From positions 75,874 to 139,873 of the forward strand of contig NZ_LQBL01000005.1 of NCBI RefSeq assembly GCF_001483745.1: a stretch of DNA of 64,000 bases, in the 5' to 3' direction. The position numbers and the translations under genes are program-made. This document shows, one piece after another, positions 1 through 14,344 of the stretch (positions within the stretch are counted from its first letter, which is position 1; each line of letters starts with the position of its first letter). Source of the stretch: Serinicoccus chungangensis. GTDB lineage: Bacteria > Actinomycetota > Actinomycetes > Actinomycetales > Dermatophilaceae. The notes beneath the pieces were generated by a model. It made no database searches. It was not told the DNA's origin and saw only the letters and a program-made list of their open reading frames with translations.

Positions 1-147
1 CGCCGCGGCGGCCAGCGGCAGGTCGCAGGCCGCCGCGAGGCTGGGGGCGTCGCCGCGGGCGTGCAGCAGGGCGGCCCCGGCCAGCACCGGGGACGCGCCG
101 GCCAGGGCCTCCCAGAGTGCGAGCGTGGTGGCCGTCGACGTGGTCAC
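1..147 (-). CDS. Hypothetical CIS-operon protein, 5' part only (cut by window edge)
   Basis: A leftward reading frame opens with a GTG at 147-145 that overlaps the tube gene's TGA in a GTGA junction, and it stays open to the window edge (49 codons). The visible part begins with a Thr-rich tip (TTSTATT), continues as LALWEALAGASPVLAGAAL and is then Ala-rich. The coupled start after the tube gene argues for a real third gene in the sheath-tube operon. I do not recognise the family and too little is visible to assign a role. It could be another tail component, or the start of a longer tube-associated protein. Confidence 0.55.
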   Translation of the reverse strand, partial: MTTSTATTLALWEALAGASPVLAGAALLHARGDAPSLAAACDLPLAAAA

Positions 148-665
148 GGCTCGGTGAAGGTCGGCTCGGTCGGCTCCGTGACGGCGTAGTCGCGCTCCCA
201 GCCCTCGTTCTCGAGCTTGATTGAGGAGATCGCCACCCCGTTGCCGTTGGCGTCCAGCTCGGGCAGCGGCTGGTACTCTGAGACCCAGCAGCGGAAGACC
301 TTGTAGGAGATGACGACCTGGCCGGCCTCGTTGTAGACCTCGATGATGAGGTCCTTGCGGAAGTCGGCCAAGGAGATCTCCGTGCCCAGGCCCGAGCCGA
401 AGTTCCACACCTTGTTGGCCCACTGCTCGAAGTCCTGGTCGTGGGTCACGCCCCGCTCCAGGGTGATCGCCTCGTACTCGCTGCGGCCGGGCGACTTGCG
501 GCTGCTCGACGGGTCACCCCCTTCGCGATGCTTGACCACCTCGGTGGTGCGCTTCAGCGCACCCACCTTGCTGACCCCGGCGACGTACCGGCCGTCCCAC
601 TTCACCCGGAACTTGAAGTTCTTGTAGGGGTCGAATCGGGTCGCGTTGACCGAGAACTCAGCCAT
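144..665 (-). CDS. CIS inner tube protein (T4 gp19 / Pvc1 family)
   Basis: This 173-residue protein matches the size and pattern of the phage-T4 gp19-like tail tube family, whose hexamers stack into the inner tube pushed out when the sheath contracts. The N-terminus reads FDPYKNFKFRVKWDGRYVAG, followed by a KVGALKRTTEVV stretch and the family's HREGGDPSSSRKSPG turn. The centre has EAITLERGVTHDQDF-W and the end has YKVFRCWVSEYQPLPELDA, all usual tube-family landmarks. The start is the ATG at 665, preceded by TAGGAGG at normal spacing. It lies 8 bases after the sheath gene and is translationally coupled to the partial gene beyond it. Only one tube paralogue is visible here; others may lie to the left. 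Confidence 0.93.
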   Translation of the reverse strand: MAEFSVNATRFDPYKNFKFRVKWDGRYVAGVSKVGALKRTTEVVKHREGGDPSSSRKSPGRSEYEAITLERGVTHDQDFEQWANKVWNFGSGLGTEISLADFRKDLIIEVYNEAGQVVISYKVFRCWVSEYQPLPELDANGNGVAISSIKLENEGWERDYAVTEPTEPTFTEP

Positions 666-673
666 GGTTCCTC

Positions 674-2206
674 CTAGGACGCCGCGCTGGCGGTCTGTTG
701 CTGGATCGAGATGATGACGAACTCGGCCGGCTTCAGCGGCGCGAAGCCCACCTCGATGTTCACGATGCCGCGGTCGATGTCGTACTGCGTGGTGGTCTGG
801 GAGTCGCAGCGCACGCTGTAGGCCTCCCGGGGGCTGCTGCCCTGGAAGGCCCCCTGCCGGAAGAGATCCTGCATGAAGGCACCCAGCGACAGCCGGATCT
901 GCGCCCACAGCGGCTCGTCGTTGGGCTCGAAGACGACCCACTGGGTGCCGCGGAAGAGACTCTCCTCGAGAAAGAGCGCGAGCCGCCTGACCGGGACGTA
1001 CTTGTACTCGTCGGAGAGCACGTCGGCACCGCGCAAGGTGCGGGCTCCCCAGGCGACCGGACCCGCCCCGCGGAAGCTACGCAGCGCGTTGACGCCGGAC
1101 TGGTTGAGCGGGCCGTTCTCGTGGTCGGTGAGGTTGGTGGCCAGGTCGACGACTCCCGTCAGGCCGGCCTCCAACCCGGCCGGAGCCTTCCAGACGCCCC
1201 GGCTGGCGTCGGTGCGTGCCATCAACCCTGCCACGCCACCGCTGGGGGCGAAGGTGTCGATGCTGCCGCCGCGCAACGGGTCCGGGCGCCGCACCCGCGG
1301 GAAGTAGATGGCCGCGTTGCGGGCGGCGAGACCGCTCAGCCCCACGCTGCTCGCCCAGGCCGGGGCTGCGCTCGGGGTGAGGGTGCCCGGCGGATCCACC
1401 ACGAGGAAGGCGCGCCGCTGGACGGCATACGCCATCGCCTGGGGCCACACGGTGGCGGGCAGGTCACCGGTGGGGGTCGGCGGTGGGATGACGATGAGGT
1501 TGACGAGGTCCGCGTGGTCGAGCGCGAAGAGGCCGCGCTTGGCGGCGGCGAATCCGGCCCCGACGTAGTCGTCGGCGTCGAGCGCGCCTCCGTCGGAGCC
1601 CTCGTCGGCGACGGCCACCGTGGTCGTGCCGGTCCCGGGGCGAGCGGCGGGCAGTACCCCGTCGACCGCGACGAGCAGCGAGGACTCCAGCACCCGGTCC
1701 AGACGCCGCGGACCGTCCACGACCGTCACGTTGCGATAGGTCTCGGTGGCGACCCCGTCGGTCACGGACAGGGTGAAGATGTCGCCGCCGCTCACCCCGC
1801 CGCCCTGGCCGGAGGCGATGTCATCGGCGTCGGCGGCGCTCGGGTGCTCGATCGTCACCGCGAGGTCGTTGCCCCAGGCGCCCGGGCCGGTGGCCTCCAG
1901 CGTGATACCACCGACCGACAGGCGCGCGGTGTCGGCGTCGAGATGCGCGACCCGGACCACCACCGCCTGACCGCCGCCGCCGAGGAAGAAGTCACGCACG
2001 GCATACCCCAGGCCACTCTCCCGCCAGAGCCCCCCGAAGTGGCGCTCGAAGTCCCCGACGCTGCCGATCGCGAGCGGGGTGTCGACGGGACCACGGGCGG
2101 CCGAGCCGACGAACGCGGTGATCGAGGTCGCGACGCCGGTGACGGTGCGGCTCCCGCTCGGCACCTCACTGATGTAGACACCTGGATAGGTCGGGGTGAT
2201 GGTCAT
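674..2206 (-). CDS. CIS contractile tail sheath protein
   Basis: This 510-residue protein has the sheath hallmark PGVYISEVPSGSRTVTGVATS at residues 8-28, then TAFVGSAARGP and a Gly-rich strand FFLGGGGQAVVVRV. The C-terminus has DIDRGIVNIEVGFAPLKPAEF, the strand that augments neighbouring subunits in contractile sheaths. The sheath surrounds the tube and drives it forward on contraction. Start ATG 2206 follows an AAGGAGTCC ribosome site. It is the first gene of the leftward operon and has its own three-box promoter just upstream (2241-2283). The length is typical of eCIS and phage sheaths, and nothing looks truncated. Confidence 0.96.
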   Translation of the reverse strand: MTITPTYPGVYISEVPSGSRTVTGVATSITAFVGSAARGPVDTPLAIGSVGDFERHFGGLWRESGLGYAVRDFFLGGGGQAVVVRVAHLDADTARLSVGGITLEATGPGAWGNDLAVTIEHPSAADADDIASGQGGGVSGGDIFTLSVTDGVATETYRNVTVVDGPRRLDRVLESSLLVAVDGVLPAARPGTGTTTVAVADEGSDGGALDADDYVGAGFAAAKRGLFALDHADLVNLIVIPPPTPTGDLPATVWPQAMAYAVQRRAFLVVDPPGTLTPSAAPAWASSVGLSGLAARNAAIYFPRVRRPDPLRGGSIDTFAPSGGVAGLMARTDASRGVWKAPAGLEAGLTGVVDLATNLTDHENGPLNQSGVNALRSFRGAGPVAWGARTLRGADVLSDEYKYVPVRRLALFLEESLFRGTQWVVFEPNDEPLWAQIRLSLGAFMQDLFRQGAFQGSSPREAYSVRCDSQTTTQYDIDRGIVNIEVGFAPLKPAEFVIISIQQQTASAAS

Positions 2207-2240: not shown

Positions 2241-2283
2241 ACGATGGACCGGGCCCGTCACCGGGGCGTCACTGCCGTGTCAC
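2241..2283 (-). promoter_or_regulatory. SARP-type promoter of the sheath operon
   Basis: Read leftward, the site has three heptamers GTGACAC, GTGACGC and GTGACGG separated by 4-bp spacers, so the GTGAC cores start every 11 bp (plus-strand GTCAC at 2279, 2268 and 2257). Eight bases after the last heptamer is CATCGT (2246-2241), a plausible -10. This matches the known SARP layout of direct heptamer repeats on one DNA face ending 8 bp before the -10. The predicted transcript would start about 30 bases before the sheath ATG. Identity of the binding protein is inferred. Confidence 0.8.
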
Positions 2284-2323
2284 CGTCGGCGACGTGCGGA
2301 CGTGCGACCGCCAGCGCTGCGGC

Positions 2324-2366
2324 GTGACGCGCCGGTGATGGACCGGTGACGCGCGGCTCGGATCGT
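2324..2366 (+). promoter_or_regulatory. SARP-type promoter of the small unknown gene at 2416
   Basis: Rightward heptamers GTGACGC (2324), GTGATGG (2335) and GTGACGC (2346) repeat every 11 bp. Eight bases after the last is GATCGT (2361-2366), matching the -10 position of the sheath promoter. The middle box departs from GTGAC by one base. The array is back-to-back with the sheath array, so this 125-bp space is a divergent, probably co-regulated promoter pair. Confidence 0.77.
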
Positions 2367-2415
2367 CGAGGTCACGAGAGCCCGGACCCACCGGGCCCGC
2401 GCGAAGGAGACGGCG

Positions 2416-2811
2416 ATGGTGACTTTGTCCTTGTCAGCGACGGTGAGTGTGGCCGATGGCCCGATGCTCCCGCTCGGGACCGACCTGGAGGCCGACTCCT
2501 ACGTCGTGGCCGACCTGACCCTCGGTGCGGCCGGCTCCGGGTCGGAGTCGCAGGAGGCGGCGTTGCTGCCCGCCGGGGGGACGATGACGCTGCTGGCCAT
2601 CCGGGCCACGACGCAGGCCGGGCTCGCGACCGTCACCGTCACCCCCAGCAACGGAGGCACCGACGGCGACGACCTCACCGTCGACGGCGTCCTGGTCGTG
2701 GCCAACGGTGGGGTCCTCGAGGCGCTGGTGGCCGGCGGGCCCCGGACCGTGACGATCGAGAACACCGAGGCCACCGAGGCCACGGTGAGCGTGCTCGCCA
2801 CGCTGGACTGA
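2416..2811 (+). CDS. Unknown small protein in the CIS locus, SARP-box controlled
   Basis: This is a 131-residue acidic protein rich in Thr, Val, Ala and Gly, with short alternating beta-type segments (for example TMTLLAIRATTQAGLATVTV and RTVTIENTEATEATVSVLAT). It has no Cys, no membrane segment and no clear signal peptide. The start ATG is preceded by GAAGGAG. I do not recognise the family. It is divergent from the sheath gene and has its own copy of the three-box promoter, so it is likely expressed with the injection system. The all-beta look would suit a structural or decoration subunit, or a cargo protein; the sequence alone does not decide. It converges on the SARP gene. Confidence 0.75.
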   Translation: MVTLSLSATVSVADGPMLPLGTDLEADSYVVADLTLGAAGSGSESQEAALLPAGGTMTLLAIRATTQAGLATVTVTPSNGGTDGDDLTVDGVLVVANGGVLEALVAGGPRTVTIENTEATEATVSVLATLD

Positions 2812-2860
2812 GCTCGCTGACGCGTGCCGGGCGCCTGGGCGGTGCGACCGGCGCGGTGCG

Positions 2861-3643
2861 TCACCCGATGCCGGCCAGCTCCCGGTCGGCGAGCGCGCGC
2901 TGCGGCGTCGGCACGGCCTGCTCCACGAGGGTCAGCAGGTCCTGCGAGGGGGTGATGCCGAGCTCGCTCTCCAGCAGCTCACGGCACGCCTCGAAGGCGC
3001 GCCTCGCCTCGGAGACGTTGCCCTCGGCCAGGTGGATCTCGACGACCATCCGGTGCGCGGACTCGCGCAGTTCGTCGGCCTGCAGAGCGGTGAGGGCGAG
3101 ATCGAGGGCTAGCCCGTATCGGCCGAGCCGTGCCAGCCGACGCGCCTCGGCATCCATGACGTGCAGGCGCAGCTGGCGCAGCCGCTCCCGCTCCGGCTCC
3201 AACCACTCGTCGTCCCAGTCCTCGAGCAGCTCGGCGGACAGGGTGCCCTGCTCCCACCCGTCGTCGTCCGGCGGGTCCTGACCGTCCAGCACCAGCCGTG
3301 ACCGCTCGACGAGGCACTCCAGGTCGACCTGGGGCTCGAGGCCGAGGCGCACCGTCCCGTGGTCGCTCAGCACGAGGCCGCCCGCCGCCTGGTTGGTCCG
3401 CCAGATCCCGGTCCGCAGGCTCGCGAGCGCACGGTGCTCGGTCGCCTCGGGCCACAGCATGCCTGCCAGCCGCGACCGCCCGATCCGGCCGCGCACGGCG
3501 AGCATCGCGACCAGCCGCTGGGCACCCGCCGGGAGGGACACGTCCTGGCCCTGCACCCGCAGCGAGAAGGATCCGAGCACGCCGATGCTCACCGTGATGT
3601 CATCGGTAGTCGATCGCCACGTCGGGGGGGTCCGTGTCGTCAC
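2861..3643 (-). CDS. SARP-family transcriptional regulator (OmpR-type wHTH + BTAD)
   Basis: The 260-residue protein has an N-terminal winged helix of the SARP/AfsR type (SIGVLGSFSLRVQGQDVSLP, then AGAQRLVAMLAVRGRIGRSRLAGMLWP; residues about 20-105). A helical bacterial transcriptional activator domain follows (about 110-250, with LHVMDAEARRLARLGRYGLAL and the C-terminal ELGITPSQDLLTL). SARPs activate promoters with direct heptamer repeats at 11-bp steps, exactly what lies upstream of three transcription units here. I prefer GTG 3643, which follows GGAAGGACC, over ATG 3673, which lacks a ribosome site. It sits between the two CIS operons and has no ATPase or TPR domain, so it is a small stand-alone SARP. 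I see no boxes in front of its own start. Confidence 0.9.
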   Translation of the reverse strand: MTTRTPPTWRSTTDDITVSIGVLGSFSLRVQGQDVSLPAGAQRLVAMLAVRGRIGRSRLAGMLWPEATEHRALASLRTGIWRTNQAAGGLVLSDHGTVRLGLEPQVDLECLVERSRLVLDGQDPPDDDGWEQGTLSAELLEDWDDEWLEPERERLRQLRLHVMDAEARRLARLGRYGLALDLALTALQADELRESAHRMVVEIHLAEGNVSEARRAFEACRELLESELGITPSQDLLTLVEQAVPTPQRALADRELAGIG

Positions 3644-3822
3644 CGAGGGTCCTTCCGTATGGCCCTGAGCCATGCTTGTGAGCGACTACCGTGCCACAGG
3701 TGCGTCGTCGTGAACAGGGCGAAGTGGGTTCACCCTTCCGGGTGGTGTCCGCTCAGAGCACTCGCCCGGCCGGGAGATACCTCGGGTCCACCCGTGCCGT
3801 GCCACGCTCCCCGGCACGGCCC

Positions 3823-3865
3823 GTGACGCCTCCGTGACACGGCAGTGACGCCGCCGGCCCAGGGT
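3823..3865 (+). promoter_or_regulatory. SARP-type promoter of the main CIS operon, likely leaderless
   Basis: Heptamers GTGACGC (3823), GTGACAC (3834) and GTGACGC (3845) repeat every 11 bp, and 8 bases later comes CAGGGT (3860-3865). The segment GTGACACGGCAGTGACGCC (19 bases) is identical to the sheath promoter read on the other strand. Only seven bases separate the -10 from ATG 3873, so transcription would begin at or next to the start codon. Confidence 0.82.
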
Positions 3866-3872
3866 GGGCCGC

Positions 3873-4526
3873 ATGAGCACCTTCCCCGGCTCGGCACGCA
3901 CCGTGCCGGGCGCGATCATCGGCGTCGAACCGACGAACCCGCTCGCCCGGATCGTGCTCTTCCAGTACAACCCCGACGAGGTCACCCGTACCGTCATCCC
4001 GCGTGCCGCGCCCAGCGGCGGGTCGGGGGCCTCCAACGCACAACGGCTGTGGGGCAGCCCTTCCGAGACGATCTCGATGACCCTCGACCTGGACGCGACC
4101 GACGGTCTCGAGGTGGGCGACCCGATTGCCGCCACGACGGGCGTCGCCGGACGCCTGGCCAGCCTGGAGATGCTGCTGCACCCGCCGACCGCCACCACCA
4201 TCGCCAACACGGCCTTGCTGGCCGCGGGGACCATCGAGATCCTGCCGCCCGACGGCCCGCTCACCGTGCTCGTCCTGGGCCCCACCAAGATCGTGCCCGT
4301 CACGGTCACCAGCCTCACCATCCGGGAGCAGGCATACTCCCCGGCCCTGTCCCCGCTGCGGGCCAGCGTCGATGTCGACCTCTCCGTGCTCACCGCGAGC
4401 GACCTGTCACCCACGGATGCGGGCTTCGCGCTGTCGATCGCCCACCAGGTGGTCAAGGAGAGCCTCGCCTCGGTCAACGCCGTCGCCTCCGCCGGCGCCG
4501 CTGCCTCCGTCTCGATCGGCGGCTGA
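3873..4526 (+). CDS. CIS tube-cap/baseplate protein, Pvc7/Afp7 N-terminal (CIS_tube) family
   Basis: The 217-residue protein carries the family signature IVLFQYNPDEVTRTV at residues 29-43, followed by SPSETISMTLDLDATDG and a mid-protein LLHPP segment. It ends in the conserved strand pair VTVTSLTIREQAYSPALSPLRASVDVDLSVL. These proteins link the last tube ring to the spike complex in eCIS and T4-like baseplates. In Pvc7 this domain is fused to LysM; here the LysM-like part is the separate next gene, two bases on. I chose ATG 3873 because an upstream in-frame GTG (3864) lies inside the predicted -10. It is the first gene of a ten-gene operon. Confidence 0.85.
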   Translation: MSTFPGSARTVPGAIIGVEPTNPLARIVLFQYNPDEVTRTVIPRAAPSGGSGASNAQRLWGSPSETISMTLDLDATDGLEVGDPIAATTGVAGRLASLEMLLHPPTATTIANTALLAAGTIEILPPDGPLTVLVLGPTKIVPVTVTSLTIREQAYSPALSPLRASVDVDLSVLTASDLSPTDAGFALSIAHQVVKESLASVNAVASAGAAASVSIGG

Positions 4527-4527
4527 G

Positions 4528-4833
4528 ATGGGGCGCTACGACCACGTCCCCCAGGCCGAGCTGGAGGTCACCCAGGCCGACGGCACCCGCCGGCGGGTGC
4601 GGTACTACCGCCGCCGTCAGCTGCCCGACCCGCGCGACCTGACCACCCTGGCCACCCACACCGTCGCTCCCCGGGACCGGCTCGACCTGGTCAGCCACGC
4701 CTACACCGCAGATGCGCTCGGCGGCTGGCGGCTGGCCGACGCCAACGCCGCACTCGACCCCGACGACCTCGTGGGCGACGAGGCCGTCGGCACAGACCTG
4801 CGGATCCCCACGCCGGGGGTGGGTGGCGTATGA
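4528..4833 (+). CDS. LysM-like baseplate protein
   Basis: This 101-residue protein has an N-terminal strand region (AELEVTQADGTRRRVRYYRRR) and a LysM-like segment: THTVAPRDRLDLVSHAYTADALGGWRLADANAALDPDDLV, then a terminal RIPTPG that matches the usual LysM ending -lxIP. In CIS baseplates such domains sit at the hub periphery rather than binding peptidoglycan. It starts two bases after the preceding stop and overlaps the hub gene by ATGA, which supports coupling. The pairing with the previous gene equals a split Pvc7/Afp7. Confidence 0.82.
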   Translation: MGRYDHVPQAELEVTQADGTRRRVRYYRRRQLPDPRDLTTLATHTVAPRDRLDLVSHAYTADALGGWRLADANAALDPDDLVGDEAVGTDLRIPTPGVGGV

Positions 4834-5975
4834 GCGCTCTCGGCACCCGCCTCACCATCCTCGCCGGTCCCAGCATCCCGATGCCGCTGACCCCTGACCT
4901 GACCGCCCGGGTGCGGGATGTGACGGTCACCGAGTCCGACGAAGGACGCTCCGCCTTCACCATCACCCTCGACGCCGGACGCAGCGGGCCACTGGCGGCG
5001 CTGGACACGCCGGTGCTGGGACGCACGCCCTTGCGGGCCAACAACCGGGTCGTGCTCATGGTGACTCTGGGCGTGGTCCCGCACGTGCTCATGGACGGGA
5101 TCGTCACCGAGACGGAGTACGTCCCCGGGAGTGCGCAGACGCAGGCCAGCGTGCGCATCACCGGGCAGGACCTGTCGCTGCTGCTCGACCGGCACGAGGT
5201 GTCTGCCGAGCACGTCGGGCTCACCGACCACCTCCAGGTGCTGGCCATCGCTGCCCGGTATGCCGCGGAGGGACTCATCCCCTCCGTGATCCCGCCCCCG
5301 GTGAGCGAACCGCCACTGCCGATCGAGCGCACACCCACCCAGCAGGGCACCGACTGGGCGCACCTCCACCAGCTCGCCGCGGCGAACGGCTTCGTCTGCT
5401 ACGTCGATCCCGGCCCGGTGCCGGGTGTCAGCACGCTCTACTGGGGCCCACCGGTCCGCGCCGGCGCACCGCAGAAGGCGCTGTCGGTCGACCTCGGGCC
5501 GGACACCACGGTCATCGGTTCACCGACGTTCCGGGAGGACGTGCTCGGCCCGGAGGTGGTCGACGGCGAGGTGCAGGACCCGCGCACCGGTGCGGTCATC
5601 CCGGTGCGGACCTTCGCGGTCACGCGCCCTCCGCTGGCCGCGATGCCGGTCTGGGCCGTGCACGCCCCGTCGGTCCGCACCCGCGCCTACCGAGACACCG
5701 GCATCAGCGCCGTGACCGCCCTCGCGAACGCCCAGGCCCGCACGGACGCGGCGATGAACTGCGTGACCGGCACCGGTCGACTGGACGGTGCCGTCTATGG
5801 CGCGGTGCTCCGTCCGCGCGGGCTCGTCGGGATGCGCGGTGCGGGCTGGTCGCACGACGGCCTGTGGTATGTCCAGCAGGTCGTGCACCAGCTGAGCCCG
5901 GGCAGATACACCGCCGACTTCACGCTGGGCCGCGAGGGCTACGGCTCGACCGTCCCGGTGGTGAAGGTCTCATGA
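4830..5975 (+). CDS. CIS hub protein (gpD / VgrG N-terminal-like)
   Basis: The 381-residue protein resembles phage late control gene D proteins and the N-terminal half of VgrG/Pvc8, which form the trimeric hub under the tube. Visible landmarks are LTARVRDVTVTESDEGRSAF (residues 24-43), a strand-rich first barrel with DGIVTETEYVPG, ASVRITGQDLSLLLDRHE, and the TQQGTDWAHLHQLAAANGFV helix that precedes the second barrel. The C-terminus has YVQQVVHQLSPGRYTADFTLGREG, the usual gpD ending. It overlaps its neighbours by ATGA at both ends. The OB-fold spike that VgrG would carry is the next gene. Confidence 0.9.
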   Translation: MSALGTRLTILAGPSIPMPLTPDLTARVRDVTVTESDEGRSAFTITLDAGRSGPLAALDTPVLGRTPLRANNRVVLMVTLGVVPHVLMDGIVTETEYVPGSAQTQASVRITGQDLSLLLDRHEVSAEHVGLTDHLQVLAIAARYAAEGLIPSVIPPPVSEPPLPIERTPTQQGTDWAHLHQLAAANGFVCYVDPGPVPGVSTLYWGPPVRAGAPQKALSVDLGPDTTVIGSPTFREDVLGPEVVDGEVQDPRTGAVIPVRTFAVTRPPLAAMPVWAVHAPSVRTRAYRDTGISAVTALANAQARTDAAMNCVTGTGRLDGAVYGAVLRPRGLVGMRGAGWSHDGLWYVQQVVHQLSPGRYTADFTLGREGYGSTVPVVKVS

Positions 5976-6463
5976 GCGGGTCAGGGTTCTACGGGAAGTA
6001 CCGCGGCACCGTCGAGAGCTCCCTCGATCCGCTCGGCCAGGGCCGGGTGCAGGTGAAGTGCCCGGCCGTGCTGGGCGACGGGACGATGAGCTGGGCCATG
6101 CCCTGCGTGCCCTACGCCGGTGACGGGGTGGGCCTGTTCATGGTGCCTCCCAACGGCACCAACGTGTGGGTCGAGTTCGAGGGCGGCGACCCCGACAAAC
6201 CGATCCTGGGCGGGTGCTTCTGGGGTGTCGCGCAGGCACCTGCGGTGCCCCCGGTCGAGCGGATGAAGGTGCTGAAGACCGACACCGCCACCATCGAGAT
6301 CAACGACCTCGTGGGGATGCTGACCATCACGGCGAGCACCCCGCTCGGCGACGCCACCATCGAGGCCGGCCCGGCTGGCCTGACGATCAGCCTGGGCACC
6401 CAGCAGATCGCTCTCGGACCACTGTCGGTATCGGTCAACAACGGCGCCCTGGAGGTGATGTGA
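5972..6463 (+). CDS. CIS spike protein (gpV / VgrG OB-fold, Phage_base_V)
   Basis: The 163-residue protein begins with the baseplate-V OB-fold: FYGKYRGTVESSLDPLGQGRV (residues 6-26), QVKCPAV, and VPPNGTNVWVEFEGGDPDKP, then ILGGCFWG. The rest is a short repeated beta segment (ATIEINDLVGMLTITAS, ATIEAGPAGLTISLG) typical of a trimeric beta-prism needle. It pierces or caps the target end of the tube. ATG 5972 overlaps the hub stop by four bases, and the stop overlaps the PAAR gene start as TGATG. No enzymatic domain is attached. Confidence 0.92.
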   Translation: MSGSGFYGKYRGTVESSLDPLGQGRVQVKCPAVLGDGTMSWAMPCVPYAGDGVGLFMVPPNGTNVWVEFEGGDPDKPILGGCFWGVAQAPAVPPVERMKVLKTDTATIEINDLVGMLTITASTPLGDATIEAGPAGLTISLGTQQIALGPLSVSVNNGALEVM

Positions 6464-6780
6464 TGCCAGGCTTCCTGCTCACGCAGACCGCCAGCGTCGC
6501 CTGCGCGCACCAGGGCCGGGGGACCCCGACCACCGTGAACCCGCGGGTGAAGCTCGGCGGCACGGCCAGCATCCAGCAGGTGACGCCGTACGCCGTCGCC
6601 GGATGCCCCTACCTGCCGGCGAGCGGAGGCCCGTGCGTCACCGGGCTGTGGACCACCGGCACCACCCGCGTCACCAGCATGGGGATGCCCCTGGCAATCA
6701 TGGCCGCCCCCGGCACCTGCGCGCCGACCGGCGTGCCGCTGCTCGCCACGGCGACCCAGACCCGGGTGCGGGCGACATGA
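6463..6780 (+). CDS. PAAR-like spike tip protein
   Basis: This 105-residue protein has the PAAR-like layout of short strands and conserved Cys and Gly: residues 1-16 (MPGFLLTQTA to CAHQG), GGTASIQQVTPYAVAGCPY, GGPCVTGLWTTGTTRVTSMG, and the end CAPTGVPLLATATQTRVRA. Such proteins form the sharp cone on the spike, often around a metal ion, and can carry effectors. The Cys residues near positions 14, 47, 59 and 86 might serve as ligands, which is inference. It is coupled at both ends (TGATG before, ATGA after). No toxin extension is present. Confidence 0.85.
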   Translation: MPGFLLTQTASVACAHQGRGTPTTVNPRVKLGGTASIQQVTPYAVAGCPYLPASGGPCVTGLWTTGTTRVTSMGMPLAIMAAPGTCAPTGVPLLATATQTRVRAT

Positions 6781-7178
6781 CCACCTCACCACAGCGGGCC
6801 TACGCCCCACGGCACCTGGCCTTCCCGCTCCGACTGGACGGGCGGGGCCGCACCGCCCGGGCCGACGACGAGCAGTACCTGCGCGGGCTGGTCGAGCAGG
6901 TCCTCTTCACCCAGCCCGGCGAGCGCATCAACCGCCCCACCTTCGGCAGCGGGGTGGCCGGTCTGGTCTTCGCTCCCTCCGGGGACTCCCTCGCGGACTC
7001 GACGCAGGCCCTGGTGCAGGGGGCCCTGCAGCAGTGGCTGGGAGACCTCATCGCGGTCGAGCGCGTGAGCGTCACGGCCGACGAGGGCCGGCTGGACGTC
7101 ACCGTGGTCTACCGGCCGTTGCACCGCATGGCCGATCAACCACGCTCGATGCAGGTCAGCGGAGGTGTCGGCGGATGA
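6777..7178 (+). CDS. Baseplate wedge protein, gp25/gpW-like
   Basis: The 133-residue protein matches the gp25-like lysozyme-fold wedge family in size and landmarks: YLRGLVEQVLFTQPGERINR (residues about 35-54), then PTFGSGVAGLVFAPSGDSL, and the C-terminal strand ERVSVTADEGRLDVTVVYRP. In contractile tails this protein nucleates the sheath on the baseplate. It overlaps both neighbours in ATGA form. The conserved EPR-type core is only loosely kept (PGERINRP). Confidence 0.92.
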   Translation: MTTSPQRAYAPRHLAFPLRLDGRGRTARADDEQYLRGLVEQVLFTQPGERINRPTFGSGVAGLVFAPSGDSLADSTQALVQGALQQWLGDLIAVERVSVTADEGRLDVTVVYRPLHRMADQPRSMQVSGGVGG

Positions 7179-9691
7179 CCACTGAACTGCCGCTGCTCGC
7201 CGAGGTGGGCCTGGAGGCCCGTCGCTCGCTGATCCGCGGGCGCACCGACATCGACGGCATCGACCGGGTGGAGGTGCTGTCCAACCACGTCGGACAACCC
7301 GGACACGTCGCGGGGGCGCCTCCGCAGCGGACCCTGGTGGTCCATCTGGTGAACGGCCCGGTGCCGACCGGCTGGGGCACGAGCGAGGTCCGGGTGCTCG
7401 GCGGCGTCCGCGAGGACCCGTCGCTCAACCCGGTCGAGGTGCTCTGGGCGCACGACGCCGTGCGGATCGCTGGGGCCTCGGGCCAGCCGCCGGTGGCCCT
7501 GCCCGAGGTCACCGCCGCCGACCGCGACCTGGTCGCCGCGACCGTCCCCGAGGACCGGCGTGAGGGCGCCTTCGTGCTGCGCACCTCCTCCAGCGGTGAC
7601 TTCTCCACCTACCGCGTGCGGCTCGTGGGCCCCGGCGGCGAGGGCGCCCCCCTCGGCATCGACCTGCCGCTGTCGGTCTCCCCGGTGCGCTTCACCGTGG
7701 ACTGCCCGGCCGACGACGACTGCGCCCTGCCCAGCACGCCGGTCCCGGTCGTCGAGGACCTGCTGCCCGGTGACTACCTCGCTCGCGACTACGAGGCGCT
7801 GCGGGTGCGGCTCCTGGACCGCTTGTCCACGGTGCTCCCGGTGTGGACCGACCGCTCCCCCGCCGACCCCGGGGTCATGATGGTCGAGCTCTTCGCCGCC
7901 GTGGGAGACCGGTTGGCCGGCTGGCAGGATGCCGTCGCCGCCGAGGCATACCTCCCGACGGCGCGCCGGCGCACCTCCGTGCGCCGCCACGCACGACTGC
8001 TCGCCTACCCGATGCACGAGGGCTGCTCGGCGCGGACCTTGCTGTCCTTCGACGTGCCGAGCGCGCTCACCGTCCCCGCCGGGGTCGCGGTGACCGACCT
8101 GCCAGCGGCGGCCGACGTCGTCACCGCCGCCGATGCCGCGGACGTCGGGGGCACCGTCTTCGAGACCGCCGTGGGAGCGACGCTGCACCCCGCCCGCAAC
8201 GCCATACCCCTGCACGCCTGGGGCGACTCGGACCATCGGCTGGAGCCCGGGGCGACCGCCGGGTACGTCGTGACCGCCGTCGGCGTGGACCCCGAGCTGG
8301 CCTCGGGTGACCTGCTGGTGCTCGCCGAGCGCCCGGTCGGCGGTGACGTCTCCCAGGGCGACCCGAACCGGCGCTACCCCGTGCGCCTCACAAGCGACCC
8401 GCTGCGCCACGACGACGTGCTCGAGCCGGGGCTGTGGGTGTGGGAGCTGCGCTGGTCCGTGGCCGACGCGCTCACCGGCCCGCTGCAGGTCACCCTGCCC
8501 GGCGCCGCGCAGCCGGTGGCCGTGGCACTGGGCAACGTCGTGCCCGCCGACGACGGCGCCAGCGTCGCGCGCCAGCCGCTGGTCCCGCCGACGGTGGGCA
8601 TGAGCGCCTACTGGCCCCGGGTCAGTCATCCCACCGTCGCCACCGTCGACCGGGCCTACCCCACCGACGCCCCGGCCGCCGAGCTCCTCCACCCCGACCC
8701 GCGTGCCGCGCTGCCCTGGCTGGAGCTGGACGACGGGCAGCACACCTGGACCCCGAGGCCCGACCTGCTGGCCAGCGGCCGCCTGGACACCCACCTCGTG
8801 GTCGAGCCGGAGCCGGGCGGCGTCGCCAGACTGCGTTTCGGCGACGGCGTGACCGGGCGGCGGCCGGCGGTCGGGACGACCTTCGCGGCGTCCTACCGGC
8901 GCGGCGGCGGGCGGCGTGGCAACCTCGCTGCCGACCGGCTGGTCCGACGCCTCGCGGCCCCGGACGGCACGGATCCCTTCGGGGGTCTGTCGGTGCAGGT
9001 GTGGAACCCGGTCCCCGCGACGGGGGGCACCGACCCCGAACCGATGGAGGACGTGGTGCAGCTCGCACCGGCAGCTTTCCGCACGCAGTTGCGGGCGGTG
9101 ACCTCGCCGGACTACGCGACCGTCGCCGAGCAGCACCCTGGCGTCCAGCGCGCCGTGGCGCGGCGGCGTTGGAGCGGTTCCTGGTTCACCCAGGCCGTCA
9201 CCCTGGACCCGGTCGCCGCGTATGCCGACGACCCGACCGTGGCGCAGGACGTCGCTGCCGCGTTGGAGGTGCGGCGGATGGCGGGGATCGACGTGACGCT
9301 GGAGCGACCGCTCATGGTGGCCCTGAGCATCGCGCTCACCGCCTGCCTGCACCGGGATGCCCCCCACGCCCCGACCGAGGCCGCGCTGCGTCGCGCCTTC
9401 ACCAGCGGCCTGCGCGAGGACGGCAGCCCCGGCTTCTTCCACGTGGACCGGTTCACCTTCGGACAGCAGGTCAGGCTGTCCGACGTCGTGGCGACGGCCA
9501 TGGGGGTGCAGGGGGTCGCCTGGGTCGAGGTGAGCGCGTTCTCGCGGGCCACCGCCACTCCCTCGGCGGCTGCGGACACCCTCGCCGCGGGAGTCATCGA
9601 GGCCGGCCCACGCGAGGTGCTGCGCTGCGACAGCGATCCCAGCAACCCCGAGCACGGGCGGCTCGAGCTGACGGTGCGAGGTGGCACATGA
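7175..9691 (+). CDS. Large J-like baseplate protein (first copy)
   Basis: This 838-residue protein belongs to the putative baseplate assembly proteins found in eCIS, related to gpJ/gp6 wedge subunits. After a family-specific N-terminus comes the conserved block LPGDYLARDYEALRVRLLDR, then WTDRSPADPGVMMVELFAAVGDRLAGWQD and TARRRTSVRRHARLLAYPMHEG (about residues 195-285). The gpJ-like core lies near the end: TQLRAVTSPDYATVAEQHPGVQRAVARRRW and VTLERPLMVALSIALTACLH. The wedge ring it forms transmits the firing signal to the sheath. ATG 7175 overlaps the gp25 stop. It differs clearly from the next gene in sequence but shares the fold pattern. Confidence 0.88.
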   Translation: MTTELPLLAEVGLEARRSLIRGRTDIDGIDRVEVLSNHVGQPGHVAGAPPQRTLVVHLVNGPVPTGWGTSEVRVLGGVREDPSLNPVEVLWAHDAVRIAGASGQPPVALPEVTAADRDLVAATVPEDRREGAFVLRTSSSGDFSTYRVRLVGPGGEGAPLGIDLPLSVSPVRFTVDCPADDDCALPSTPVPVVEDLLPGDYLARDYEALRVRLLDRLSTVLPVWTDRSPADPGVMMVELFAAVGDRLAGWQDAVAAEAYLPTARRRTSVRRHARLLAYPMHEGCSARTLLSFDVPSALTVPAGVAVTDLPAAADVVTAADAADVGGTVFETAVGATLHPARNAIPLHAWGDSDHRLEPGATAGYVVTAVGVDPELASGDLLVLAERPVGGDVSQGDPNRRYPVRLTSDPLRHDDVLEPGLWVWELRWSVADALTGPLQVTLPGAAQPVAVALGNVVPADDGASVARQPLVPPTVGMSAYWPRVSHPTVATVDRAYPTDAPAAELLHPDPRAALPWLELDDGQHTWTPRPDLLASGRLDTHLVVEPEPGGVARLRFGDGVTGRRPAVGTTFAASYRRGGGRRGNLAADRLVRRLAAPDGTDPFGGLSVQVWNPVPATGGTDPEPMEDVVQLAPAAFRTQLRAVTSPDYATVAEQHPGVQRAVARRRWSGSWFTQAVTLDPVAAYADDPTVAQDVAAALEVRRMAGIDVTLERPLMVALSIALTACLHRDAPHAPTEAALRRAFTSGLREDGSPGFFHVDRFTFGQQVRLSDVVATAMGVQGVAWVEVSAFSRATATPSAAADTLAAGVIEAGPREVLRCDSDPSNPEHGRLELTVRGGT

Positions 9692-12183
9692 GCGTGGACG
9701 AGGCGACGACGCCGGACGGCGGCCCACCCGCCGTCACCAACCCCGCAGGGCAGCGCTCGCTGCGGTGGCGGGCCGCTCCCCACGGGCAGGCCCTGGCGCG
9801 AATGCGGGCATACCTCGCAGATCCCGCGCAACCGCTGCCCATCCGGTCGATCGCGCACGACGCGACCACCGACCCGGCCATCGCGCTGCTGGACTCCTGG
9901 GGCGTCGTCACCGACATCGTGTCGTTCTACACCGAGCGGATCGCCCAGGAGGGCTTCCTGCGGACCGCGACCGAGCGGGACTCGGTGCGCCAGCTGGCCC
10001 GCACCCTGGGTTACGAGCTGCGGCCCGGCGTCAGCGCCGAGGTCGAGCTGGTCGTGGAGGTCGAGACGGCTGCCGGGGCGCCCGAGGCGGTCCAGGTGCC
10101 CGAGGGCACCCCGGTGCAGACGATCCCTGCCCCCGGTGAGCTGCCGCAGATCTTCGAGACCTCCGAGCCGCTGGAGGCCCGAGGCGCCTGGAACGCCCTG
10201 TCCGGGGCGGTCTCGGTGCCGCAGGAGATCCCCTACGGCACCGACACGCTGTGGCTGGCGGGCACGACCACCGGCGTGCGGGTGGACGACCACATCCTGG
10301 TGGTGGGCTCCGAACGGCGCGGTGTGACCTCCACCGAGGAGCACTCCGCGGACCACGAGAAGTGGGACGTCCGCCGGGTGGTCGAGGTGACCACGGACCC
10401 GGAGTATGCCGTCGGCTGGACCCGGCTGCAGCTCGACCGCGGCGTGGGGTTTACCAGCGCGCGACCGCTCGTCGCCGAGGACGAGCTCGTCGTCCACCAC
10501 CTGACCCGGCGGTTGAACCTCTTCGGCTGGACCTCCCCGGCCCCCGAGCTGCTGGACGACGACCATGCCGGCCAGTGGGACGACTGGGACATCGACGCGG
10601 CGGAGCGGGTGCTGGAGATCGACGGCGACGTGCCGGAGCTGGCCGTCGGCGGGTGGCTGGTGCTGGACCAGCCGGGGCGCACCGAGTCCTACCAGATCAC
10701 CTCGGTGACCCCGTCCGGTGCCGCGAAGTTCGGCATCGCCGGCAAGGTGACCCGCGTCGGCGTCGACGTCACCCACCACCTGGACGACTTCGACCGGCAC
10801 GAGGCGATCGTGCTGGGCGTGAGCCGCCTGTTGCCCGCGCTCCGACGGCCCGACCTGGAGCTGGTCGGAGCGGCGCACGACGGCACGCCGGGGACGACGC
10901 TGGCCGTGACCTCGACGGAGCCCGCCTTCGAGGCCGACCGATGGGTGCTGGTCGAGGGCATCACCGAGGACGGCACGCGGCAGGTGGAGGCCACCACGGT
11001 GACCGCCGTCAGCACGGCGGCTGCGGGCCCGGCCCACGCGCCGGGCGTCCTGGAGCTCACCGTGGACCCACCGCTGCGCCACCGCTACCACCCGGGGTCG
11101 GTGACGGTCCGCGGCAACGTGGTGCTCGCGACCCACGGCGAGACCGTCGCACAGGCCCTCGGCAGCGGGGACGGCCGTGTCGAGTTCCCCACGGTGACGC
11201 TGCGTCGCGCACCGCTGACCCACGTCCGCAGCACGACCGACCCGACCGGAGCCACTCCGGAGCTGACCGTACGGGTCGAGGGTGTCGCCTGGTCGCCGGT
11301 GGAGTCGCTGCTGGAGGCCGGGCGCTCGGACCAGGCCTACACGAGCCGACAGGCCGAGGACGGCTCGACCTCGGTGACCTTCGGCAACGGCACGCACGGT
11401 GCTCGGCTACCCACCGGGGTCGAGAACGTCACCGCGACCTACCGCGTGGGCATCGGCGAGGACGGCGCCGCGGACGCCGGGCAGGTGAGTCTTCCGATGC
11501 GCAAGCCGCGGGGGATCAAGGCGATCAGCAACCTGCTGCCCACCCGCGACTGGGCACCGCCCGAGGGCCTGGACGAGGCCCGCACCAACGCCCCCCAACG
11601 CATCCGCACCCTGGACCGGGTCGTCAGCGTCGAGGACTACGCCGACTTCGCCCGCGGCTACTCCGGGGTGGGCCGTGCGCGCGCCGACCTGGTCTGGACC
11701 GGCCAGGTCGAGGCCGTGGTCCTGACCGTGCTGGACGCCACACTCGCCCCCGCCTCCACGTCACTCGTGGCCGACCTGCGGGACACCATCGACGCGGCAC
11801 GGGAGGAGAGGGCGGTCCGGGTGGTGCTGCCCGGCGACGTCATCGACATCGGCGCGACGCTGAGCATCGAGGTGGACCCGCGGCACGAGGAGGAGACCGT
11901 GCTGGCGGACGTGCGGGCCGCCCTGCTGGCGGCCCACGGCGGTCTAGATCTGGCGCAACCCCTGGCAGCCTCGGCGCTGCTCGTGGTGGCCGCCGAGACC
12001 GCGGGCGTGACGACGGTGACCATGCCGACCCTGACCATGCCGAGCCAGCCCGGGGCCGACCCGGACCTGCTCGTCGCCGCGCCTGCGCGCTGGGCCGGCG
12101 TAGGGCCGGGCGCCGGTGGCCTCGTCGCGGCGCAGGCCCTGGCCCTGCGCGACCACCTGCTGGCCGTGGCGGTGGACCGATGA
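9688..12183 (+). CDS. Large J-like baseplate protein (second copy)
   Basis: This 831-residue protein is a second, divergent baseplate-J-like subunit. The opening block SIAHDATTDPAIALLDSWGVV, ADIVSFYTERIAQEGFL-like helices and RQLARTLGYELRPGVSAEVEL (residues about 55-125) parallel the conserved entry block of the first copy. The C-terminal core has RTLDRVVSVEDYADFARGYSGVGRARADLV and a long strand-helix tail with VVLPGDVIDIGATLSIEVDP. Two unequal J-like proteins in series match Afp11 and Afp12 of known eCIS. It starts within the ATGA of the previous stop. Confidence 0.87.
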   Translation: MSVDEATTPDGGPPAVTNPAGQRSLRWRAAPHGQALARMRAYLADPAQPLPIRSIAHDATTDPAIALLDSWGVVTDIVSFYTERIAQEGFLRTATERDSVRQLARTLGYELRPGVSAEVELVVEVETAAGAPEAVQVPEGTPVQTIPAPGELPQIFETSEPLEARGAWNALSGAVSVPQEIPYGTDTLWLAGTTTGVRVDDHILVVGSERRGVTSTEEHSADHEKWDVRRVVEVTTDPEYAVGWTRLQLDRGVGFTSARPLVAEDELVVHHLTRRLNLFGWTSPAPELLDDDHAGQWDDWDIDAAERVLEIDGDVPELAVGGWLVLDQPGRTESYQITSVTPSGAAKFGIAGKVTRVGVDVTHHLDDFDRHEAIVLGVSRLLPALRRPDLELVGAAHDGTPGTTLAVTSTEPAFEADRWVLVEGITEDGTRQVEATTVTAVSTAAAGPAHAPGVLELTVDPPLRHRYHPGSVTVRGNVVLATHGETVAQALGSGDGRVEFPTVTLRRAPLTHVRSTTDPTGATPELTVRVEGVAWSPVESLLEAGRSDQAYTSRQAEDGSTSVTFGNGTHGARLPTGVENVTATYRVGIGEDGAADAGQVSLPMRKPRGIKAISNLLPTRDWAPPEGLDEARTNAPQRIRTLDRVVSVEDYADFARGYSGVGRARADLVWTGQVEAVVLTVLDATLAPASTSLVADLRDTIDAAREERAVRVVLPGDVIDIGATLSIEVDPRHEEETVLADVRAALLAAHGGLDLAQPLAASALLVVAAETAGVTTVTMPTLTMPSQPGADPDLLVAAPARWAGVGPGAGGLVAAQALALRDHLLAVAVDR

Positions 12184-14342
12184 CCGCCTTCGCCGAGCGC
12201 CGCGCCGACCGGGCGGACTACCTGGCCGCACGCCTGCCGGCCCACGTGCTGGCCCGCGACGAGGAGTCCGGCGGCCTGCTGCGGGCGTTGCTGGAGGCCG
12301 TCGCCGGTGAGCTCGGCGTCGTGGAACGCGACCTGGAGATGCTGTACGACTCCTGGTTCGTGGAGACCTGCCCGGACTGGGCCGTCCCCTACCTGGCCGA
12401 TCTCGTCGGCCTGGTCGGCCTCCCCGACGACCTCGGGGCCGCGAGCGGAGCCGGGGTCAGCCGTCGCACCATCGTCGCCAACACGGTAGCCTACCGGCAG
12501 CGCAAGGGCACCGTCGCCGTGCTGGAGCAGGTCGTCCGGGACGTCACCGGGTGGCCGGCGCGGGCGGTGGAGTTCTACCGGCTGCTCGGCACCACGACGC
12601 ACGTGCGCTACCCCCGACCGGACCGGCCGACCTGGGCGTCGGTGCGGCGCGCGGCCGACGCCGAGACGGAGTCGTCGCCGCTGACCGGGGGCTGGCTGAG
12701 CCAGCACGCGCACACCGCCGAGGTGAGGGCCGTCGAACCCGGGCCCTGGGGCGGTCACGGTCGCTACGGCATACCCCACATCGGGGTAGTGGTCACCCCG
12801 CTGCGGGTCTGGGAAGGTGTGCGACTGCCCGCCCGCGCGGTCGGCGACGAGTGGTTCGCGCACCCGCTCGGATGGGAGGGTCCGCTCTTCGCCCGACCGG
12901 CCGTCGAGGAGGGGATCGAGCACTTGGCCGGTGAGGCCGACCTCGCGGTGCCGGTCCGGCCGCGACGCCTGCTGGCCGCGCTGCAGGCGGCCCGGTCGCT
13001 GGCGCCGGGCGAGCCGCTGCCGCTGGCGGTGCAGGTCGACGGCGTGGAGCTCGATGCCGACCGGATCCGGGTCTGCGGGCTGGAGGACCTGGCCGACGAC
13101 GGCGCCGGGGGCCCGCTCCCGGGGTGGCAGGTGACGGTGGACGCGGTGCGCGGAGTGCTGCACACCGTGCAGGACGGCGTGGCCGGCACCCCCACCGACG
13201 TGGTGGTGGACTGGGGCAGTGGCAGCGTCGCCGATGTCGGCGCCGGCCCCTACGACCGGACCCTGGAGCACGACGCGGCGCTGGCGGCCGACCCCTTCGT
13301 CGGCGACACCGATACCGGCGGCGACACCGTCACCGGACAGCAGCCGGTGCTGGCCGGGTCGGCCGTCGTCGGCACCAGCCCGACCCTGGCTCACGCGGTG
13401 GGCCAGGTGGGCGCCGCCTGGGCGGACCCGGCCGAGCGCGGCGGCACCCACGTCGTCTCCGTGGGCGACAGCGCCCGCTACGTCGAGTCGGTCGGCCTGA
13501 CAATCCCCGCCGAGTCGCGCGCCGTGCTGGTGGCCGCGCACTGGGCCGGTCGACAGACCATCCTCGGTGACATCCTGCCCCCGGTGCCTGGGGTCTACGC
13601 CGCGCAGGGGCTGCGCCCGACGATCTCCGGGGACCTGACCGTGAGCGGCGCGGCAGGGTCGAGCCTGCTGCTCGACGGGCTGATCATCGACGGAGACGTG
13701 ATCGTGCAGCCCGGCGACCTGGGCTCGCTGACCATCAGCCAGTGCACGGTCGCCGGGCAGATCCGGGTCGACGGCAGCCCTGCAGACCCCAACCGCTCGT
13801 GCGTCGTCACGCTCCGCCGCAGCGTCGTCGGTGCGGTGCTCCTGGCCGCCACCGTGCCAGAGCTGCGCCTCGGCGAGAGCGTCGTCCACCCCTCCATCAG
13901 CGGTGGCGGGGCCGCGATCGACGCCCCGGTCGCCCACCTCGACATCGCCGGATCGACCATCCTCGGCGACGTGGGTGCCCGGACGCTGGCCGTGACCTCC
14001 AGCCTGTGCGACGGCGTGGTCGACATCGTCGACCGGCAGGTCGGCTGCGCCCGCTACAGCTATCTCGCACCGGGCAGCCGGACCCCGCGGCGCTACCGCT
14101 GCGTGCCACCGCAGGACGCCGTCGTGGCGCCCACGCCCAGCTACGTCTCGCTCGACCCCGGCTCGCCCTGGTTCGCCAGCCTCGCCCCCGGCGCAGCCGA
14201 GGTGCTGCGTCGGGGAGGCGAGCTCGGGGCGGAGATGGGCGTCCACCACCACCTCCGGCGTCCGGTGCGCCTCGACGCGGCCCGCCGCCTCGTCGAGCCG
14301 TACCTGCCCGCCGGGATGCAGATCGGATTGTTTGGGAGCTGA
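12180..14342 (+). CDS. gpI-like tail protein with C-terminal beta-helix
   Basis: The first part of this 720-residue protein is gpI-like: AARLPAHVLARDEESGGLLRA, VVERDLEMLYDSWFVETCPDWAVPYL and ANTVAYRQRKGTVAVLEQVVRDVTGW (residues about 15-125). GpI proteins sit at the baseplate edge and anchor fibres. The second half is unusual. About residues 480-620 show short repeating strand units such as ISGDLTVSGAAG, SLLLDGLIIDGDVIV, LGSLTISQCTVAGQI and APVAHLDIAGSTILGDV, with the rhythm of a right-handed parallel beta-helix. It then ends with a Cys-containing, Pro-rich tail. The helix could be a fibre base or receptor-binding unit. It overlaps the previous gene and ends two bases before the fibre gene. 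Confidence 0.82.
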   Translation: MTAFAERRADRADYLAARLPAHVLARDEESGGLLRALLEAVAGELGVVERDLEMLYDSWFVETCPDWAVPYLADLVGLVGLPDDLGAASGAGVSRRTIVANTVAYRQRKGTVAVLEQVVRDVTGWPARAVEFYRLLGTTTHVRYPRPDRPTWASVRRAADAETESSPLTGGWLSQHAHTAEVRAVEPGPWGGHGRYGIPHIGVVVTPLRVWEGVRLPARAVGDEWFAHPLGWEGPLFARPAVEEGIEHLAGEADLAVPVRPRRLLAALQAARSLAPGEPLPLAVQVDGVELDADRIRVCGLEDLADDGAGGPLPGWQVTVDAVRGVLHTVQDGVAGTPTDVVVDWGSGSVADVGAGPYDRTLEHDAALAADPFVGDTDTGGDTVTGQQPVLAGSAVVGTSPTLAHAVGQVGAAWADPAERGGTHVVSVGDSARYVESVGLTIPAESRAVLVAAHWAGRQTILGDILPPVPGVYAAQGLRPTISGDLTVSGAAGSSLLLDGLIIDGDVIVQPGDLGSLTISQCTVAGQIRVDGSPADPNRSCVVTLRRSVVGAVLLAATVPELRLGESVVHPSISGGGAAIDAPVAHLDIAGSTILGDVGARTLAVTSSLCDGVVDIVDRQVGCARYSYLAPGSRTPRRYRCVPPQDAVVAPTPSYVSLDPGSPWFASLAPGAAEVLRRGGELGAEMGVHHHLRRPVRLDAARRLVEPYLPAGMQIGLFGS

Positions 14343-14344
14343 CG

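Follow-up and report, generated by a model that had tools for sequence, protein, structure and literature searches.

Which regulator switches on the contractile injection system (CIS) of Serinicoccus chungangensis, and do its oppositely oriented gene groups answer to the same signal? The window analysed here (the whole stretch of 64,000 nucleotides, C5:75874-139873 of the 3.56-Mb actinobacterial genome) begins with tube and sheath genes on the minus strand, followed by a small gene on the plus strand, a SARP gene on the minus strand and a baseplate operon on the plus strand from position 3873 (Table 1). A preliminary description of this DNA had proposed that one promoter code is used at three of these units and that the SARP reads it.

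The locus and its three promoters

To the left of the window, the sheath strand continues with genes for a 228-aa protein, a Pvc16_N tail-terminator protein, an AAA ATPase and an eCIS_core protein (locus L065). Because these lie beside the sheath, tube and baseplate genes, the Pfam assignments describe a full eCIS-type cluster. The sheath/tube operon is predicted to extend into this region, and the baseplate genes at 4528..17185 are predicted to form one continuous operon on the basis of gene order and strand. The first baseplate gene likely starts at ATG 3873 rather than at GTG 3864. Neither Pfam nor PHROGs gave a match for its product, and a related gene in another locus (L124:55-705) encodes a protein that matches CIS_tube below the cut-off.

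Table 1. Genes, predicted boxes and -10 words of the injection-system locus (window positions).
Feature	Position	Strand	Basis
Tube gene, gp19-like	144..662	-	Pfam
Sheath gene, first of a sheath/tube operon running out of the window	674..2206	-	Pfam
Sheath promoter, -10 word CATCGT, 8 bp past last box	2241..2246 (read 2246-2241)	-	sequence
Sheath promoter, three predicted boxes: GTGACAC, GTGACGC, GTGACGG; 5' ends 2283/2272/2261	2255..2283	-	sequence, script
Small-gene promoter, three predicted boxes: GTGACGC 2324, GTGATGG 2335, GTGACGC 2346	2324..2352	+	sequence, script
Small-gene promoter, -10 word GATCGT, 8 bp past last box	2361..2366	+	sequence
Small CIS-linked protein gene, 131 aa, divergent from sheath	2416..2811	+	family comparison
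SARP gene, winged-helix N-terminal + BTAD, 270 aa	2861..3673	-	Pfam BTAD, AfsR profile match, model
Baseplate promoter, three predicted SARP boxes: GTGACGC 3823, GTGACAC 3834, GTGACGC 3845	3823..3851	+	sequence, script
Baseplate promoter, -10 word CAGGGT, 8 bp past last box, 7 nt ahead of ATG 3873	3860..3865	+	sequence
First baseplate-operon gene, probably CIS_tube-like	3873..4526	+	relative's below-cut-off match
Remaining baseplate operon: base_V, baseplate J, Tail_P2_I and DUF6519 genes	4528..17185	+	Pfam

Both reading of the sequence and a script reproduced the GTGAC-type triples with 11-bp steps, an 8-bp gap and a six-base word that had been described for the three units. The shared layout is confirmed: each of the three CIS promoters has three GTGAC/T boxes at exact 11-bp steps, then 8 bp, then a -10 word of the form NANNNT. 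The plus-strand box positions stand as first given, and the minus-strand positions 2279/2268/2257 prove to be the low ends of GTCAC words, the 5' ends of the boxes being 2283/2272/2261. The -10 consensus first offered, [CG]A[TG][CG]GT, is too narrow, and NANNNT is the form that holds across relatives. The identity noted between two promoters on opposite strands is exactly 19 nt long. It joins the sheath and baseplate promoters with the register shifted by one box, such that boxes 1-2 of the former coincide with boxes 2-3 of the latter.

An uncultured Serinicoccus has a SARP 89% identical to this one, in which BTAD (PF03704, E=1.9e-14, residues 148-250) is the only Pfam domain called. A profile built from 12 SARP relatives matches both domains of S. 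coelicolor AfsR (8hvr; E=3.3e-16, positions 9-238), and the best fold match of a structural model (pLDDT 86) is AfsR in its RNA polymerase complexes. This profile match, together with the strands and helices of the model at residues 28-110, identifies an OmpR-type winged helix at the N-terminus. On a tree of the relatives, the CIS-linked SARPs need four changes when set against eight box-bearing rows without a CIS (52 rows being unlabelled), so that they are not demonstrated to be one clade. A link to bldA through TTA codons was considered and rejected, as the window SARP gene has no TTA codon and, among 11 Streptomyces rows, a TTA falls inside the matched gene only in L101 and upstream of the match in two others (L104 and L112).

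The repeat word, its spacing and its rarity

The code was examined in 79 loci taken by SARP similarity, the best 80 of at least 515 relatives having been retained. These loci are related and were counted without phylogenetic correction, so the locus counts below are not independent of one another. Counting GTGAC pairs on the same strand gives 102 at 11 bp and 34 at 22 bp; the other distances from 7 to 38 bp that are not multiples of three give 2-11, and multiples of three 7-34. When all 5-mers were ranked at distances of 10, 11, 12 and 22 bp, TGACG and GTGAC at 11 bp came out on top, with 104 and 102 pairs where about 5 would be expected. Three-box matches followed by any -10 number 73, in 43 loci, at a step of 11 bp, and 2-24 at steps of 7-10 and 12-17 bp.

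Once the step of 11 bp, the gap of 8 bp and NANNNT are all required, GTGAC gives 31 matches in 26 of the 79 loci. By comparison, 59 letter permutations of the core give a mean of 0.25 matches and at most 13, the maximum likely being that of TGACG, which picks up the same sites one base on. A gap of 8 bp accounts for these 31 matches, a gap of 9 bp for 11, and every other gap from 0 to 16 bp for 0-3. Direct repeats at 11 or 22 bp with an 8-bp gap place these sites among SARP promoters, for which the accessible text of PMC10936776 gives the rule that repeats are spaced by 11 or 22 bp and that 8 bp separate the last, 3' repeat from the -10; sites of three heptamers are known for several SARPs (PMC10972967, available part). 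A site at this strict threshold is absent from the stretch examined in 53 of the 79 SARP loci, and some SARP relatives may therefore read other words.

The -10 word was also sought in 32 sites from 12 CIS clusters that had been selected on their boxes only, overlapping registers included. Of the 32 sites, 27 have an A at +16 (background 0.135) and 23 have a T at +20 (background 0.133), and no other position downstream of the last box approaches these two. Nearly every box has G or A as its sixth base, giving the word GTGACR.

In a GC-rich genome such repeats might arise by chance or as an artefact of coding repeats. The three-base coding rhythm does raise the pair counts at 6, 9, 15 and 27 bp (up to 34), but neither 11 nor 22 is a multiple of three, and both exceed the other non-multiples between 7 and 38 bp; likewise, the permuted cores average 0.25 matches where GTGAC yields 31. 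The step, gap and permuted-core controls refute the coding-repeat artefact, and we give an origin of this kind practically no credence.

Within the window, GTGAY triples with up to two mismatches number four (three of them exact), with 0.76 expected, and 2 of 100 shuffled windows reach four. The whole genome contains five exact triples, three of which are the promoters described here, and none of the reversed pattern. GTGAY-11-GTGAY was found at 32 places, 30 of which were read, and among these NANNNT stands 8 bp after the box pair only at the same three promoters. The genome-wide scan that had been suggested as a way to find more regulon members thus yields no further full layout among the 30 pairs of this genome, and the additional members came from relatives (see below). 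Many matches at unrelated genes had been named as evidence that would weigh against the regulon; the matches elsewhere amount to two triples, L004 (G000:C28:27069-27095) and L005 (G000:C29:14560-14586, before a gene), and both are excluded from the regulon because NANNNT is missing at 8 bp.

Each of these two triples has features of its own. L004 is a GTGACC triple about 84 bp ahead of a lipoprotein-like gene. L005 is of a GTGACCT type with GATC spacers that occurs in two Serinicoccus-like genomes, the other instance being G297:C5:295560-295586, and it is possibly the site of another regulator.

Sheath promoters with and without a SARP nearby

Do the boxes follow the SARP or the sheath gene? 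The 200 bp ahead of sheath genes were scored in 18 genomes reached via SARP/CIS loci. Thirty sheath loci were fetched (L202-L231), from which 16 orthologous and 10 paralogous sheaths were counted. The uncounted loci are L228 (another part of the L217 gene), L219 and L229 (distant sheaths, linked to a SARP, in G312 and G314, whose matches begin only at residue 217) and L230 (no match).

Orthologous sheaths (one per genome in 16 genomes, best segment 53-91% identical) have boxes in 15 of 16 promoters, scoring 13-15 of 15, and NANNNT follows at 8 bp in 13 of 16. The exception, L216, scores 11, and its sheath gene looks leaderless; in L214 and L215 the last T of the -10 word is missing. None of the ten paralogous sheaths (33-39% identical) has boxes, their scores being 8-10. 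The comparison of upstream regions in related actinomycetes, which had been proposed as a check, therefore bears out the code at the orthologous sheaths. In eight genomes (two Humibacillus, two Cellulomonas, Cellulosimicrobium, Isoptericola and two Streptomyces) SARP and sheath stand at opposite ends of the cluster, 20-23 kb apart, yet the sheath promoter keeps its boxes.

An unselected survey covered 396 genomes of the phylum, 30 of which, including that of S. chungangensis, have a sheath at E 1e-60; one sheath per genome was scored and four second sheaths were left out. Only one of the 29 other sheath promoters has boxes (L288, 14/15, with TAGCGT), and the remaining 28 score at most 11. Its genome, G403, is the sole survey genome with a strong SARP match seen close to the sheath, at 3.6 kb. 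The box-less sheaths of G021 and G535 have weaker SARP matches at distances of 12 and 24 kb, in long frames of 847-1118 aa (E 1e-16 to 1e-18). Several survey genomes are fragmented, and where the SARP is on a different contig (for example G359, G596 and G435) its distance from the sheath cannot be stated. The paralogous sheaths and the survey together rule out a general CIS promoter motif.

Sites at orthologous genes and at fixed distances are what descent alone could produce, and the GTGACR repeats might in that case be a promoter feature inherited with the sheath and baseplate lineage and unrelated to the SARP. Eight survey sheaths are 50-59% identical to that of the window, and among these close relatives the one near a SARP scores 14/15 with TAGCGT, whereas the other seven score 8-11. 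Sites are also found at non-CIS genes beside SARP relatives. Given both observations, we regard inheritance without the SARP as very improbable.

Across the 18 genomes (about 129 Mb), 19 of 36 GTGAY triples fall within the CIS/SARP cluster, and the reversed control gives one match. Against such a coupling, another scan found the GTGAC triple away from the SARP match in 8 of 13 triple-bearing genomes; in G044, G017, G145 and G032 GTGAC triples occur only beside a SARP match. Three genomes of one genus (G049, G093 and G163) have GTGACC-type triples at 5, 6 and 1 places, none of them beside a SARP match, and these could belong to another regulon or be repeats.

In the 12 clusters or cluster parts that were scanned, the code is found in front of the sheath gene, the first baseplate gene and the small gene divergent from the sheath. 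Extra matches were found in G311 (before a gene and before an eCIS_core-like gene), and further registers in G304 and G307. Ahead of one sheath gene, GTGAC/GTGGC boxes follow one another about six times at 11-bp steps (L048 6896-6962), where three are usual. The small gene, listed in the preliminary description as an unknown member of the regulon, belongs to a CIS-linked family that is present in the window and in 7 of the 16 orthologous sheath loci; loci with a member include L093, L203, L204 and L209-L212. All six promoters of this family that were read have at least two boxes, and five have NANNNT. Its product in the window matched nothing in Pfam or PHROGs, and a structural model based on two sequences was poor (pLDDT 44) and was discarded.

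The ATPase and effectors had been suggested as further targets, and in relatives boxes do occur at both. A Nonomuraea AAA ATPase gene has boxes with TAGCAT. The eCIS_core gene of Cellulomonas sp. Leaf395, which encodes a CdiA_C-type end, has three boxes (13/15) and GACGCT, with the ATG 7 nt on, and the eCIS_core-like gene of G311 (Streptosporangiaceae) has two boxes, 8 bp and CATCGT. In S. chungangensis the ATPase and eCIS_core genes follow the sheath gene downstream, in its orientation. For some SARPs of this branch that have no CIS in the stretch examined, boxes lie ahead of astacin, subtilase and other genes. Two such cases are an astacin gene (L036 4420-5556, minus strand; the same gene in L110) and a divergent subtilase pair (L044 7013-10263), both with GTGAC boxes beside a SARP relative and with no CIS found in the stretch.

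The regulator itself might still be another OmpR-type winged-helix protein, for example a PhoP-like response regulator, with the SARP incidental or upstream. PHO boxes are 11-nt direct repeats read by PhoP, and the boxes of the window share this 11-bp step. In favour of such a reader, no boxes point to the start of the SARP gene itself, an observation on which autoregulation of the SARP was also rejected, and AfsR and PhoP are reported, in the accessible part of PMC10972967, to have common target repeats at afsS. A PhoP-like reader fits less well with boxes that track the SARP, both in the orthologous and paralogous sheaths (15/16 against 0/10) and in the survey (1/29, with its SARP 3.6 kb off), and that also occur near some members of this SARP branch for which the stretch examined contains no CIS. 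We consider such a reader improbable and the window SARP the far better candidate.

The proposed regulon and its relation to known systems

The baseplate and sheath promoters differ in what follows the -10. Twelve loci have a baseplate gene adjoining the SARP (L111 and L136, with this gene downstream of the sheath, and L124 fall outside this set). In all 12 the first box precedes the baseplate ATG by 49-50 nt, and 6-7 nt separate the end of the -10 place from that ATG; ten of them have NANNNT, whereas L106 and L107 have boxes without it. No ribosome-site word was found in 11 of the 12 promoters, and in L101 such a word is the -10 itself. Transcripts usually start 6-8 nt after the -10, so that the baseplate ATG would lie at or within 1-2 bases of +1, and the mRNA of SARP-adjacent baseplate genes is probably leaderless. 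L124 has boxes and an ATG 22 nt past the -10, and is therefore not leaderless. At most sheath promoters a leader that includes a ribosome site would fit, but not at that of L216.

The SARP layout, the SARP gene and a three-unit CIS regulon, as originally suggested, are supported by the core, step and gap controls, by the -10 signal in sites selected on boxes only, by the sheath comparison and by the coupling of boxes and SARP in the survey. Very probably, judging from sequence comparison, the window SARP reads the GTGACR boxes and activates the sheath, baseplate and small-gene units together. The 270-aa protein (2861-3673) would bind the boxes as protomers lined up along one helix face, in keeping with the 11-bp steps, cover the -35 place and bring RNA polymerase to the -10 word that follows after 8 bp. 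The sheath/tube/ATPase/eCIS_core operon, the baseplate operon and the small CIS-linked gene would thereby be co-activated. The baseplate mRNA would begin at or within 1-2 bases of the ATG and probably be read without a leader, and the sheath mRNA would carry a ribosome site in a leader of about 27 nt. Two translation modes may in this way be served by a single promoter code, and we infer that leaderless reading of the baseplate and leader-borne reading of the sheath could set the few-to-many ratio of parts.

A wider role for this SARP branch, which is spread across many actinobacterial families, seems to us possible rather than probable. It might be a dedicated activator of delivery and lytic machinery instead of antibiotics, using one GTGACR code for whole injection systems (sheath and baseplate, in some lineages also for the ATPase and an eCIS_core effector) and for protease genes without a CIS nearby, with leaders setting the ratio of parts.

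Regulators known for CIS are, in the sources available to us, those of a few Streptomyces systems (SlpR with bldA) and BTAD candidates, for which no binding sites are given there. The accessible text of Geller et al. 2021 (PMC8213781) lists BTAD and GerE as eCIS 'shell' domains and names BTAD as a likely regulator, a view repeated in the available part of a review (PMC12961389), and a network analysis in S. clavuligerus linked a SARP gene to phage-tail genes (PMC13102240, available part). These eCIS-linked BTAD/SARP genes show the same association with CIS as the window SARP; as far as PMC8213781 and PMC13102240 are accessible, they offer association only, whereas here there are cis sites, target promoters and conservation. 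A SARP site at a CIS promoter did not appear in the literature searched, which included accessible parts of PMC13170358 and PMC8584621 and left preprints and most subscription papers outside.

Other Streptomyces CIS depend on LuxR-type SlpR/SCO4263, bldA and SigE, according to the portions available of PMC8505568, PMC10020575, PMC10286715 and PMC13277306. In these accounts SlpR/SCO4263 (S. lividans and S. coelicolor; bldA-dependent) is likewise a cluster-specific regulator of an actinobacterial CIS, but it belongs to the LuxR type rather than the SARP family. The paralogous sheaths tested here lack the GTGACR code, and the window SARP lacks TTA.

The closest parallel in mechanism lies in antibiotic clusters. 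To the extent that the sources are accessible, antibiotic SARP promoters (AfsR/afsS, DnrI, ActII-ORF4 and PimR) resemble those of the window in their 11-bp direct repeats, 8 bp to the -10 and, sometimes, three heptamers, and the SARPs of these clusters likewise combine a winged helix with BTAD (PMC10936776, PMC10972967). Their targets are biosynthesis genes, whereas those predicted here are injection-system operons. The repeat word here is GTGACR, and 'GTGAC' is absent from the available text of the SARP review PMC10972967; in one SARP paper checked, 'GTGACG' is present in a primer. The window baseplate promoter abuts its start codon, unlike the antibiotic SARP promoters compared.

The SARP promoter mechanism is thus known, and the CIS targets and the GTGACR word are apparently new, which would extend SARPs beyond antibiotic clusters. 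A cis code of fixed form, paired with a named cognate regulator, provides an exact promoter map and a predictable regulon in many genera, and makes the control of the machine, that is, when and why an injection system is built, directly testable. Paired promoters under one activator would also allow leaderless and leader-borne translation to be compared.
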